From Hysterium pulicare CBS 123377 (Eukaryota; Ascomycota; Dothideomycetes; Hysteriales; Hysteriaceae): DNA of 26,322 nt. The notes under the pieces were generated by a model that worked only from the letters and a program-made list of their open reading frames with translations, had not been told where the DNA came from and searched no databases. Location of the stretch: contig AJFK01000012.1 in the NCBI GenBank assembly GCA_000467715.1, positions 1-26,322 of the forward strand, read 5' to 3'. Position numbers and translations under genes: made by a program. Of the stretch, positions 3,912 to 12,646 are shown piece by piece (within the stretch, counting starts at the first letter, position 1; each line of letters opens with the position of its first letter).

Positions 3912-4088
3912 TTACAAGACTGTGCATTTAGCTGGTAGCCCACAGGGACCCTCTTTATCGCTCTTCTCCTTCTGCTCTGGTGTTGATCCCGCAGCGGCAG
4001 GTTGTTCTTTGGGGTTTGTAGTATTTTCTATCTTCTTTTGTTCGCCGCCCGCTGCAGCTGGAGCCGCACCCTGCTTACCGCCATCTAG
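3912..4088 (-). other. Predicted stop-codon readthrough extension ending in a CaaX prenylation box
   Basis: The reverse-strand frame of the upstream enzyme continues in phase directly after its TGA (4089-4091), beginning with CTA (4086-4088). It runs 58 codons without a stop to TAA at 3912-3914. The extension has a linker of about 45 residues, rich in Ala, Pro, Gly, Lys, Glu and Gln. It ends Gly-Pro-Cys-Gly-Leu-Pro-Ala-Lys-Cys-Thr-Val-Leu. Cys-Thr-Val-Leu is a CaaX box, and a terminal Leu favours geranylgeranylation; a second Cys six residues upstream could be palmitoylated. UGA CUA is the established high-readthrough context in fungi and animals. A full readthrough product would be 264 aa. 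That it is translated is inference. A recent nonsense mutation or a sequencing error are the alternatives. A 33-base GT-AG excision (4071-4103) would also bypass the stop in frame, but it is shorter than known fungal introns. Confidence 0.7.
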
Positions 4089-4962
4089 TCACGCAAAGCT
4101 GACCTTGGAAACAGTGCCGTAGAAGGCCTTGCCTTGCTCGGTGGCTAGCTCGAGTTCCTTCGCGGTTGGTTGACGAGATCCATCTCCGCTGGCGAAGGTA
4201 CCGGCGCCCCATGGAGAGCCACCGCGCACCTCACTCAGATCCGCAAGGAGGGCGAAGGTTGTCTTGTAACCTAGCGGAACGTAGATGATACCGTGATGGG
4301 TGAGGGTGGACATTGCGGCGATGCAAGTGGACTCTTGACCACCGCCCGCCTATATTTGAGGAAGTAAATTAGCCACGTTCATTTTTCTATCCACGGTGGA
4401 GTTGTGAGTAACTTACAGTAGCGGTCGAGACGAAGAGGCCGGCATATTTGCCCCAGAAAGCACCAGTCTGCCACTGCTTGCCGGTATTATCCCAGAACGC
4501 TTTCCACTGCGCGGGGAAGTTTCCGTAGCGGGTTGGGATGCCGAAGAGGAAGGCATCGTAGGACTCGAGGATGGATGGGTCGGAGAGGGTCTGGATCTCG
4601 GATGGCTTTGCGGGAGCATGCATCTTGGCCAGGACCTCCTGGGGAAGGGTCTCTGGGATCCTGTTGGGTGGTTAGTGAGAGGTCAAATTGATTGAAGGGC
4701 TGGAAGGGAGTAGGGTAGAGAGAGTAGGCTTACTGGAAGAGGTCCGCGGTGCCGCCAGCGGCTTCAATGCCCTTCTTTTCGGCCTCGGCGAGGGTCTTGA
4801 TGTGACCGTACATGGAGTACTGTGATGGACAGTGTGGTTAGCATTTACAATTATAAAGTCAATTGCACGGTCCTGGAGATCGAGTGAAGCGTCACAGAGA
4901 TCCGAACCCGAGTGTAACCTGGAGAGCTGACGTACGTAGACAATAGCGATCTTTGGAGCCAT
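4089..4962 (-). CDS. Flavodoxin-like NAD(P)H:quinone oxidoreductase, type IV (WrbA/Pst2 family)
   Basis: Four exons on the reverse strand (4936-4962, 4734-4819, 4417-4660, 4089-4349) give 205 aa to the first stop. Introns begin GTACGT, GTAAGC and GTAAGT, and all phases match. The protein starts Met-Ala-Pro-Lys-Ile-Ala-Ile-Val-Tyr, the first beta strand of the flavodoxin fold. A Ser-Met-Tyr-Gly-His segment follows at the FMN phosphate loop. The family signature [12 protein letters not shown] occurs mid-protein, and Ala-Gly-Gly-Gly-Gln-Glu opens the last exon. Relatives (WrbA, yeast Pst2/Rfs1/Ycp4, fungal minor allergens of the Alt a 7 group) bind FMN and reduce quinones by two electrons, protecting membranes from oxidative damage. 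The first 9 codons form their own exon. The stop is UGA followed by CUA, and the frame continues for 58 codons (separate entry). Confidence 0.93.
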
Positions 4963-5930: not shown

Positions 5931-7162
5931 CTATGATGATGTGATGTTGAGACCAAGCGCTTGAAGCGCCTTGCCAGCATTCAAATCGATATGCATGGGA
6001 TTCGACTGGATCGCAGCCTCATAGTATTTGAGATGTTGGCCGTTGCTGATGCTGGAATTTCCAATAATATCGATTGGTAGGATTCCGTTCGTATATTTCG
6101 AAGTGATCATGTTGATGACAAGGGATTGGTTGACTGTAGAGACCATAGGGACATGGTTGTCGCCTGGCTTAAGGAGTAGATTTTGCATCGTAGACGTGCC
6201 AATGGCTTGTCCTGCGACTGATAAATCTAAGGTTACGTTTCCTAGATCTATGCTCAGCACCGATGGATTCGGAATGAGGACGGTTCCGTTCATGTTGCTC
6301 CCATCTGGAAGTGGGGTTAAGAGAATGTTGAAATCGGTGATGTTAAAGCCATTAAGCTTATTCAATCCTAGATTTCCGGTTAGTAAGTTCACCTCCCGTA
6401 GTCGTTAAGGTTTTCACGAAACTAACCTTTCATCGTTATGGCTTTGTTGTAGTCAACAGTCATCTTCCTCAACCCAGATTGATGAACTCCTGTCCGCCCG
6501 CGCATGCCAACGCGAAACTCCTCGCTACCCATAACAAGCATATTGTACGCAATGAATTGGTCCATGTCGGCAATTTGCACATTCTCGTCTATGGTAATCG
6601 TGGTTTCAGCGTCGGCTTTCGTCTTTGGAACGTCAATATACATGAACGGTTTGATATTTGGCTCAGTACTCTCTAGGAACAGTGCTGCTTTGAAACCGTC
6701 AAGAGTTGGATGAAAGCTACTGGAACTCTTTGCCAGCGCGACAAGTTTCAACTGAACGGATGACGAGGTAGGATCGGTGACATCTTGTTCCTGGATCTCG
6801 AGCGTTGATGCATTGATGTCGTGCTGAGCCTTGTTGGGAATGGCCACAAAGAGTCTGTGCAATCGTCAGCTCCGACGCGTTTGTATAGAAGATAGCAGAG
6901 AGTATTCGTGGAAGCACCGTTGACTTTCTCTGAAGGCAACCTACATTGGCAATAGTATGGCCAATCCAATTATGATGATGAGAAGTAAGTCGCACCACCA
7001 AAACTTCTTATAGTGGTTTTTTAACCTCCCACCACCATTAGGATTTGAAGGATATAGAGTCCCACAACATCCTCCACGTTTTGTACCGCCTGACCTCCTC
7101 GCAGAGCCATCCGATGCGATGCGTTCCGAGTAGTCGGCCTGCATCTTGTCGTCGTGCTCCAT
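5931..7162 (-). CDS. DUF3712 family single-pass membrane protein
   Basis: Three reverse-strand exons (6945-7162, 6427-6854, 5931-6367) give 360 aa. The introns, 90 bp and 59 bp, begin GTAGGT and GTTAGT, and the reading frame is kept through both. The first 55 residues are hydrophilic and Arg/Gly/Lys-rich, with a Gly-Cys-Cys-Gly motif near residue 31. A strongly hydrophobic helix spans about residues 57-78 (Leu-Leu-Leu-Ile-Ile-Ile-Ile-Gly). About 280 mostly beta-type residues follow, with several Asn-x-Ser/Thr sites, suggesting a luminal or extracellular domain. The alternating pattern and length match fungal DUF3712 proteins, whose function is not established and which resemble lipid-binding LEA/AsmA-like folds. 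The start at 7162 is the first ATG; upstream extension needs a TTG. Confidence 0.85.
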
Positions 7163-8851: not shown

Positions 8852-9866
8852 ATGGTTTCCGACGAAGAAGATGATTATATGAGTATGGTTTTTGGAGAGC
8901 CTGAAAAGCCTGGTAAGGAGAGCTCAATCCAGCGAGCAGCTCGTAAAAAACGTGAGGTACGTCCTAACATCCGCGACACGAATACATTCTGTTTACCTAG
9001 GTGTACTAACTAATATCTGGCAGGGCGCGATAAAAGCTCGTGTCAAGTCGAGGGCGGAACAAGAAGCGGAAAGTACAGCTGCACGAGAAGCTGCCCTAGC
9101 TACTGCCCTGGATACCTCCAATAAAGGCTTCAAGATGATGGCAAAACTTGGCTTTAAGCAAGGCGATACTCTTGGAGCATCTAAAGATGCCCGGAAGGAA
9201 CCAATTAACTTAAACATGAAGGAGGATAGAGGAGGTGTTGGGATGGACTCGGAAAAGAAAAGGAAGTTTCGGGAGGAAATGGAAAAGGAGTCGAAACGTG
9301 TCAAAGCAGAAGAAGGCGATTACCTCGAGCGCGTTAGATCAGAACGGGAAGCCAAAAGAAAAGAAGCCCAGTTCTCTGCCGCGCAGAAGACTGCGGAGAG
9401 GCTAGATTCCGAGTCCCAGGACAGCGCGAATCAAACCACCGAATCAAACCGACCTGGAAGCCCCGAGAAGAAACCTAACTCGAAGGCCACAATGGAGCCA
9501 TTGAAAAGTGTCAACGTTCTGTGGCGAGGCCTTTTGCGAGATAGGATGGAGAGGGAAAGAGATGCAAAGATACGGCGCGGTCTAACGGATAGAGATTCGA
9601 AGCTCCCGTCTTACGAAGATGATGACGAAGATGACGACTACAAACTTGCACTTGGCCGGGACCAGAATATGGCTGTTGTGGAAGAGGATTTAGTTGAGGA
9701 GGACGCGGACCTAGACGACTTCAATGCTCTGCCCCCTGCCGAGCGGCTTGAGAAATTGGTCCTCCACCTAAGGGACGCGCATCACTATTGCTTCTGGTGT
9801 AAGTATCAGTATCCAGATGCCACCATGGATGAATGCCCTGGGGTCACAGAAGAAGACCACGATTGA
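8852..9866 (+). CDS. G-patch domain protein, GPATCH11-like, with C-terminal DUF4187
   Basis: Exons 8852-8956 and 9024-9866 give 315 aa. The 67-bp intron has a perfect TACTAAC branch site (9004-9010) and ends GGCAG. The start lies in ACAAAATGG, a good context. The N-terminus is acidic (Ser-Asp-Glu-Glu-Asp-Asp-Tyr-Met). The G-patch is at about residues 68-113, with the Gly-Phe-Lys-Met-Met-Ala-Lys-Leu-Gly-Phe core and the later Gly-Gly-Val-Gly. A long charged, coiled-coil-like region follows, then an acidic Asp/Glu run. The C-terminal ~50 residues (Leu-Arg-Asp-Ala-His-His-Tyr-Cys-Phe-Trp-Cys ... Cys-Pro-Gly) match the DUF4187 zinc-knuckle-like end of GPATCH11. G-patch proteins typically activate DEAH-box RNA helicases in splicing or ribosome assembly; the partner helicase here is unknown. 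Confidence 0.9.
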
Positions 9867-10440: not shown

Positions 10441-12646
10441 ATGGAACACCAGAGGTGTTACATTTACGAACCACCTACACAGGAAGAAAGAGCATCGAAA
10501 CGCCGTCGAATCGCAACGCCAGTGCAACAAGCCCTCCGAGAGCAGACCTATCGAGAATTATGGTCTATTCAAGAACAACGAATTAAGGTAAGCTTCATAA
10601 TTCAGTCTACTATTAACAACACTAAATGAAGCAGGATACGCTGGAAGAAGCCGACAGAACAACACTTGAGAACATTGCCAATTTCATATCCGCCACTCCC
10701 CTAGCCCATGATCAGGAGCTACGTTCTGTTCCAACCGGATTGATCATTGCTGGCCCCAGCATTGCTTCTCATGGCTCTTTCTTTGGGCGTCTAGGCAACA
10801 AAGTTTCAAATGATAGAAATAGCACCTTCGTTCTACTAAATTCTGGCGAGTGTCCAAATTTAAAAACGCTCTTGAAAAATCTGATCAAAAAGGCTTCGTC
10901 TCGCATCGAGGACGATGAAGACGAGGAAACTGGGCGAAATGCGAGTCTATCAAGGCATGGCCCAAAGCTGCTTGATTTTGACCTTGGTCTGCTCCAGGAT
11001 TGGCATAGTAAAAGTCAAGTAAAGAATATTGTGGTTGCATTTCAGGATAGCGAAGCTTTCGATGCCATTTTACTTGCTGAAACCATCGAATTATTCCAGT
11101 AAGGAGTCTTCCATGTCATTCAAGACGCGACTGACATTCAGTAGCACCTGGCTCGACCGCCTACCATTTGTTCTATTATTCGGAATTGCAACATCTTCGG
11201 AGAGCTTCGAAGACAGATTGTCTGGAAGAGCTTTACATTACTTAGAAGGGGAAAAGTTCAATGTCACGCAGTCCGATGAAATCGTCGAGAAATTGTTCAA
11301 TGCAACGATTTGCGGTTCAGATATATCGCTTCGCGTTGGCCCTCATCTCAGCAGACGAGTTCTCGAGAGGCAGAAAGATCATGTGCAGAGCGTACAAGAT
11401 TTTTCTGATGGTCTCAAATACGCGTACATGTCTCATTTCTATGCGAATAAACTGAGCGTCTTTCTAAACCATGATCTCGATTTTGATGCAGTACCACCAG
11501 ACGTGTTCGAGGCGGCAAGAAACCTTCCTTCCTTTCGCAGGTAAGAAATACCTTAATTATCATGCCATCTGTCTCTGCTGACCCAGACATAGATGGGTTG
11601 AGGGGTTGTTGGATGATGACCGTACTCAAGAGGTACGTAAGCTCCTGGATTCCAATCAATACCTCTTCGACAATATCAAGGAACATATCGAAACTGGAAA
11701 ACAGTCGCTATCCGATCTCAGCTATGCGAGTGTCGTCCTAGCAACTATACGGGACTGTCTTCAGATGACGCCGCACGTGCTCAATTCCTCAATATGGATC
11801 CGCGCAGCTTCTGGAGAAATGAACGGATCACCACTCATCCGCGAAACCTTGCTATCCATCAAGAAAGTATCCTCAGATAAGTTGGCACAATTGCTGGAAT
11901 CTCTGGCGACACTCGAGAGTTCTGATTTGCCGCTTGACCTGTTAGCAGGTCGAGAAGACCTCAAAAGACTGATCGAGAAGAACACGACGGCCGCGCCGCT
12001 CAGAAGTCAGCACGACGTCCGAAACAACAGCCTGAGGACTACTGTTGTTGCGCAAAAGGTCGAACTGAGCAAGCAAAAAGCTGCACTTTCGGAACAAGAT
12101 AAGGCCTATTCCGAACTTGTTAACCGCTTTCACAATGACATCGAAGACTACTTTACTCGCACTTTTATCGACCCAAAAAGCCTGTTCCTTTCCGAAATTT
12201 TGATGTACGACCTCAAGACTCCGCATTCAGAGGTCTTCAATCCCAGACCGCGTTTTGCTGTAGAACGCGCTCTCGCGTCGCCGCATGACTATCTTAACTG
12301 TGATTGCTGTGGGGATACAGATGGTGGTCGTGACTCGGAGGGCGCGTTATCTGCGACCCAGCCGGCAACAGCTATCCTGTACCAGCTATACCTGGAATCA
12401 GGCTCGCTCATCAACGTTAGCGATCTATGGTCGGCATTCAATGCCATTATGGCAGACGAGGACGAAGGTGCTGAATCCACCACAATGTAAGTCCCTGAAG
12501 GCATCTTTTAACTTGCAGGCAGTATTGACCATCTTCACAGGGCACTCTTCCAACGAGCACTAGCAGAGCTCAAATATCTCGGACTAGTCAAACCGAGTAG
12601 AAAGAAAACTGATCACATCTCGAAGATGATGTGGAAGGGTCTTTGA
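10441..12646 (+). CDS. ORC3: Origin recognition complex subunit 3
   Basis: Five exons (10441-10587, 10635-11098, 11142-11540, 11593-12486, 12541-12646) give 669 aa, a normal length for fungal Orc3. Introns are 43-54 bp with GTAAG donors, and all phases close. The Orc3 N-terminal domain shows Leu-Ile-Ile-Ala-Gly-Pro-Ser-Ile-Ala-Ser-His near residue 90. Later comes a Phe-His-Ser-Thr-Trp-Leu-Asp-Arg-Leu-Pro-Phe-Val segment across intron 2. The C-terminal winged-helix region has Arg-Ala-Leu-Ala-Ser-Pro-His-Asp-Tyr-Leu and Leu-Tyr-Leu-Glu-Ser-Gly, and the last exon ends in a basic segment. Orc3 is a structural AAA-related subunit of the nuclear complex that marks origins and loads MCM helicase. 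It overlaps no gene but ends 42 bases from the stop of the convergent BNA1. Its stop is UGA followed by CUA. The acceptor of intron 3 is ambiguous (11586 or 11592; both keep frame). Confidence 0.95.

Follow-up and report, generated by a model that had tools for sequence, protein, structure and literature searches.

The window analysed here is a stretch of 26,322 nucleotides from Hysterium pulicare CBS 123377 (contig AJFK01000012.1, positions 1 to 26,322 of the forward strand). On its minus strand, a gene of four exons encodes a type IV NAD(P)H:quinone oxidoreductase, the short form of which comprises 205 amino acids. The gene and the DNA past its stop codon hold the following features:

4936..4962, minus strand: coding exon 1 with the ATG start (gene model; intron after exon 1 checked)
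4734..4819, minus strand: coding exon 2 (gene model; flanking introns with CTAAC branch-like sites)
4417..4660, minus strand: coding exon 3 (gene model)
4089..4349, minus strand: coding exon 4 through the UGA stop, with SKVSFA as the end of the short form (gene model, TIGR01755)
4081..4091, minus strand: putative leaky-stop context UGA CUA GAU GG (sequence; recurrence of L-D-G)
3951..4088, minus strand: linker of the extension, 46 codons, unalignable among relatives past the first four codons (sequence, comparison)
3915..3950, minus strand: conserved tail GPCGLPAKCTVL with upstream Cys and CaaX box CTVL (tail profile; genome pattern search)
3912..3914, minus strand: second stop TAA (sequence)

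The enzyme scores 196.6 bits against TIGR01755 compared with a curated cut-off of 132.5, and the match spans residues 4-195, that is, the whole domain. By sequence, its best PDB match is 5mp4 (Protoplast secreted protein 2, yeast Pst2; E 1.2e-75), and the closest homologue among the matches listed, from Neofusicoccum ribis, shares 85% identity. A tree of 56 hand-picked domains places the gene's row among Dothideomycete and lichen rows, which points to a dothideomycete as the probable host. A search of the 37.2 Mb genome (596 contigs) revealed neither a second copy of the enzyme nor a second tail. One weak extra match to the enzyme (E 1.5, at C511) was rejected as a flavodoxin; it lies in a 208-aa open frame devoid of visible flavodoxin likeness, which we take to resemble a proteasome subunit (Rpn10-like). 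Other open frames nearby in the window match DUF3712 (5931-6392, minus strand) and G-patch with DUF4187 (8892-9866, plus strand), and a further frame at 11606-12490 (plus strand) matches the winged-helix domain of the origin recognition complex.

The TGA at 4091-4089 (minus strand) is followed by CTA GAT GGC, giving the context UGACUAGAUGG at 4091-4081 with UGA, CUA and G as the next base. Downstream, the same frame remains open for exactly 58 codons (4088-3915) and ends A-K-C-T-V-L as part of GPCGLPAKCTVL-TAA; a second Cys, a possible palmitoylation site, is located six residues upstream of the CaaX Cys. The original prediction had described precisely this arrangement of TGA-CTA, 58 open codons, an Ala-Lys-Cys-Thr-Val-Leu end and a Cys six residues before, and its coordinates and description proved exact. 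It had also held that no antisense gene constrains this DNA, and no plus-strand ORF of at least 100 aa overlaps 3912-4091. In a chance model of 200,000 first-order Markov sequences built on the 400 bases past the stop, 2.6% displayed a frame open for at least 58 codons and 0.28% ended in a CaaX-like box, each property being counted singly. No unusual RNA structure was detected downstream of the stop (z 0.36). The genome contains the motif TGACTAGATGG 12 times and the reversed pattern 8 times; of the 11 further sites we inspected 7, and at none of them does the motif terminate an open frame longer than 39 codons, introns being ignored. By itself, TGACTAGATGG is therefore uninformative.

Evidence that the extension is coding comes from its end. 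Our comparison covers 227 different homologues, namely the best 120 of 6755 matches together with the best 120 of 845 obtained when the homologue P0108 served as the query. We counted 57 long forms and 154 short forms (190-230 aa), and left 16 of the 227 uncounted, these being tandem proteins of more than 400 aa and proteins of odd length. The long forms consist of 50 NCBI-sourced rows and 7 sourced under jgi or lgn alone; closely related sequences are included among the former (many Fusarium, Colletotrichum and Penicillium), and there are 48 distinct tails. The species carrying long forms we take to belong to the Dothideomycetes, Leotiomycetes, Eurotiomycetes and Sordariomycetes. When a profile was built from the tails of 48 relatives, it matched the frame right after the TGA with 46.2 bits (E 9.4e-14), whereas none of the 848 remaining window frames scored better than E 0.79 (849 frames of at least 20 aa searched), and a degenerate pattern of the tail has this site as its sole match in the 37.2 Mb genome. 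As judged by sequence comparison, the tail of the extension is homologous to the C-termini of relatives and a real part of a protein.

Among the matches listed, the upstream Cys motif is present in 49 of the 50 NCBI-sourced long forms and the full end [GS]-[PS]-C-G-L-P-x-x-C-x-x-[LQMS] in 48 of the 50, counts that are partly circular, as long forms were recognised in part by this motif; the profile search of the window does not suffer from this circularity. The last residue of the CaaX box in 48 relatives among the matches listed is Leu in 21, Gln in 21, Met in 5 and Ser in 1, and the type of prenyl group therefore need not be conserved. By general rule, a CaaX box ending in Gln, Met or Ser suggests farnesylation. 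Geranylgeranylation, as originally predicted from the terminal Leu, agrees with CTVL in this gene but is not the conserved choice among those 48 relatives. Between the first post-stop codons and the tail, we found no alignable linker among the window and the seven jgi or lgn rows. Some long forms deviate. P0119 and P0183 were kept in the class although they do not have the full tail; P0119, from Lasallia pustulata, ends KKKKFPDKCEIQ after a Lys-rich stretch, a CaaX box in a protein that does not have GPCGLP, and here the Lys-rich stretch is perhaps a polybasic substitute for the second Cys. P0177 from Lachnellula hyalina, the annotated tail of which seems to be read in another frame past the junction, was kept out of the long forms; the shift of frame probably reflects a gene-prediction error around the stop.

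The position of the stop is conserved as well. Among the matches listed, 153 of the 154 short homologues stop 25-29 residues past DGSR, and 142 of the 154 end in K-V-x-F(A) or a near variant. In the long forms listed, a Trp is located 24-30 residues past DGSR in all seven jgi/lgn-only rows versus none of the 50 NCBI-sourced ones, a split by source with a probability of 3.8e-9 if the labels are independent. On the assumption that the jgi and lgn rows come from automatic gene calling that ignores introns, Trp at the place of the stop is most simply read as a TGA that was translated as Trp by the automatic caller. Were the codon a genuine TGG, the NCBI annotations should show the Trp too, yet they omit the segment. 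For these relatives, TGA is thus deduced from Trp, and CTA would be the reading of a Leu for which CTN or TTR are possible.

Of the seven Trp rows, P0108 begins at Met and has no intron-like insert while the stop is retained, and therefore looks like a spliced cDNA still holding the stop. P0121, P0126 and P0128 bear stretches that by eye resemble intron sequence, and so seem genomic. P0108 and P0121 also have another W at the end of the CaaX box and continue beyond it, as would be expected if TGA were translated as Trp, and P0220 is ambiguous with two Trp in the region. The tree of 56 hand-picked domains, in which 3 of 53 inner branches are strongly supported, sets the Trp rows apart from each other, with P0108 and P0121 among Leotiomycetes, P0126 by Alternaria and Pyrenophora and P0127 near those, the placement of the other Trp rows being unsure. 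Used as a protein query with W at the stop, residues 196-264 gave no match among 36 candidates, whereas the wider P0108 region did match; a search for relatives' DNA in viral, bacterial and archaeal contigs gave no match. The original prediction had named the joint conservation of TGA CTA and a Cys-a-a-Leu end as a check. The stop position and the tail are conserved, TGA CTA would be so on our reading of the protein rows, and the Leu is variable.

Directly past the stop, the window and the seven Trp rows share Leu in 8 of 8, Asp in 6 of 8, Gly in 7 of 8 and Ser in 5 of 8 sequences, followed by background until the tail. Identities between pairs at these first four positions amount to 75 of 112, whereas 20,000 random draws of four-residue pieces from the same linkers averaged 11.3 and never exceeded 33; six of the seven Trp rows come from the P0108-seeded search (best 120 of 845 matches), and the sample therefore favours P0108-like rows, which are also partly related. 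L-D-G is broken in P0121 (LAEG) and P0220 (LHGW). The window and P0108 share both L-D-G and the tail despite different linkers, and P0108 was found with X at the stop in the query, before any W was used. As the codons in the window are CTA GAT GGC, the recurrence of L-D-G is consistent with selection acting on UGA CUA G, which, according to the portions of the literature covered, is a known context of high readthrough in fungi and mammals (PMC4207609, PMC4359377, PMC12233894).

On the basis of these comparisons, we propose that programmed readthrough of UGA-CUA-G yields a soluble and a prenylated isoform from one mRNA, a reading to which we assign a probability of roughly 78%. Most ribosomes would terminate at the UGA and release the soluble 205-aa quinone reductase. 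In a minority, a near-cognate tRNA would decode the UGA owing to the following CUA G, and these ribosomes would cross the variable linker and append GPCGLPAKCTVL. The CaaX Cys would then be prenylated and the upstream Cys perhaps palmitoylated, so that a fraction of the enzyme would be membrane-bound and could reduce ubiquinone there. Readthrough itself, its rate, prenylation and membrane localisation are what we infer. The notion of a leaky termination that joins a CaaX tail to the quinone reductase, put forward in the original prediction, thus gains support from the comparison of sequences: the stop position, the first post-stop residues and the tail recur, and the linker does not. Repeats of PF00432 match three places in the genome, which may belong to prenyltransferases or to cyclases. 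The GAPDH and PGK genes of the same genome, tried as positive controls, both end in TAG. Past the TAG of the GAPDH gene (L002, G000:C243), the frame runs ESGQSQAMPKL-stop, the PKL end of which we take to be PTS1-like; by analogy with other fungi, this extension might be reached by splicing or readthrough. Both GAPDH and PGK are cases of readthrough in other fungi, and their TAG stops in this genome count against the proposal, as does the ordinary RNA structure past the TGA.

Among the alternatives, splicing fares best, even if we regard it as improbable for this gene. Such splicing would use a donor at the Val codon that follows the conserved Lys (AAG|GT); the intron would take out the stop, and transcripts retaining it would give the short form. 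The pre-stop peptide K-[VI]-[NST]-F is absent in 47 of the 50 NCBI-sourced long forms among the matches listed, a rough count because a few lineages, for example Chaetomium, have short forms that do not have this peptide, and many of the long forms resume just past the Lys; loss of the peptide together with resumption after Lys would fit such a donor. In Halenospora varia, P0123 equals P0121 in this region, minus the 13 residues VNFAWLAEGSAKE around the stop and plus one substitution, but the implied gap is 39 nt. Introns of fungi are usually longer than this. Two Teratosphaeria species with near-identical domains are annotated one as short, the other as long, and for fungal PTS1 enzymes the excerpt covered describes readthrough and splicing as forming a mosaic (PMC4973966).

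In the window itself, however, a simple scan did not turn up any intron that could be used. The donor at the corresponding place, GTCAGC, scores 3.2, and the in-frame acceptors for it are purine-rich. The best donor anywhere between the start of exon 4 and the stop reaches 5.6, compared with 8.0-9.6 for the true donors of the gene, all values being derived from a generic matrix rather than a trained one. The three true introns all have CTAAC or CTAAT 15-23 nt from their ends, whereas 4349-3912 does not contain any CTRAY branch-like site. Moreover, splicing alone leaves the recurrent L-D-G directly past the stop unexplained. Splicing over the stop is therefore unlikely in this gene as judged from its sequence, yet it may do the same job in relatives; some of the stop-skipping introns annotated there may be real, and others may be devices of gene predictors to pass the stop. 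A strong-looking donor, GTAAGC, is present at window position 4078 (minus strand), 13 nt past the first base of the stop; being located after the stop, it cannot remove it, but it could shorten the linker.

The remaining rivals are weaker still. A relic, with the stop fixed and the tail decaying, would account for the unconserved linker, but we consider it very improbable, as the 58-codon frame is open, both Cys residues and the CaaX box are intact and the stop resides in a high-readthrough context; in addition, stop and tail occur together again in rows close to Leotiomycetes and in others close to Pleosporales. A-to-I mRNA editing, known in some filamentous ascomycetes, would likewise put Trp at the stop by turning UGA into UGG in some life stage, but hardly any weight falls on it: P0108 and P0121 would each require two edited stops, P0121, P0126 and P0128 seem genomic, and a requirement for L-D-G is not expected from editing. 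An assembly or base-calling error at 4091-4089 is just as implausible, for even though the assembly is a draft in 596 contigs, 153 of the 154 short relatives among the matches listed stop at the homologous place.

Programmed readthrough may also extend beyond this species. We would lay even odds on a module made up of UGA CUA GAY GGN, a variable linker and GPCGLPxKC-a-a-X that is conserved across filamentous ascomycetes and gives rise to a minor prenylated isoform, with some lineages splicing over the stop and yeasts using the CaaX paralogue Ycp4. If true, changes in termination fidelity could tune the membrane share of an antioxidant quinone reductase, and the differing C-termini of 'minor allergen Alt a 7' annotations between related species would be explained.

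The nearest known systems are fungal GAPDH, PGK and TPI and human LDHB and MDH1, which, in the portions of the papers covered, share the UGA CUA context and the pairing of a main cytosolic with a minor targeted form (PMC4207609, PMC4359377, PMC4973966, PMC3840789). The readthrough enzymes of this type that carry a PTS1 end in a tripeptide; in contrast, the quinone reductase would receive a CaaX box accompanied by another recurrent Cys, a membrane is the expected destination, and its extension is long and includes a linker that varies. In the literature excerpts covered, functional cases of readthrough mostly concern peroxisomal targeting, and if a conserved leaky stop did append a CaaX box, the principle would extend to membrane anchoring. 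The original prediction's statement that such dual targeting is not known to be described for prenylation stands only in part. According to the passages covered, the readthrough extension of Drosophila Syx17 has a predicted farnesyltransferase signal (PMC3840789), and human readthrough extensions were screened for prenylation sites (PMC4359377). Syx17 thus resembles the present gene in bearing a prenylation signal on a readthrough extension, but in the excerpt it is a single prediction and concerns a different protein. Among the papers listed by our literature searches, we recognised no conserved lipid-anchored enzyme of this kind, and in their titles and abstract openings neither readthrough of a type IV quinone reductase nor demonstrated readthrough-derived prenylation; the portions covered of PMC10822820, PMC11616006, PMC4999894, PMC9231725, PMC12609287 and PMC5753163 contain nothing on readthrough of a quinone reductase or on prenylation thereby.

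The Ycp4/Pst2 flavodoxin-like proteins of yeasts belong to the same enzyme family as this gene. In the parts of the sources covered, Ycp4 of Candida albicans is extended at its C-terminus by about 90 aa, the last of which form a CAAX box (PMC4556627), and Ycp4 of S. cerevisiae is stated to be palmitoylated, its GFP fusion being located at eisosomes (PMC7943015). In Candida, the CAAX form is a separate gene beside the Pst paralogues, whereas here one gene would give both forms; filamentous ascomycetes would thus obtain from one gene what yeasts divide among several.
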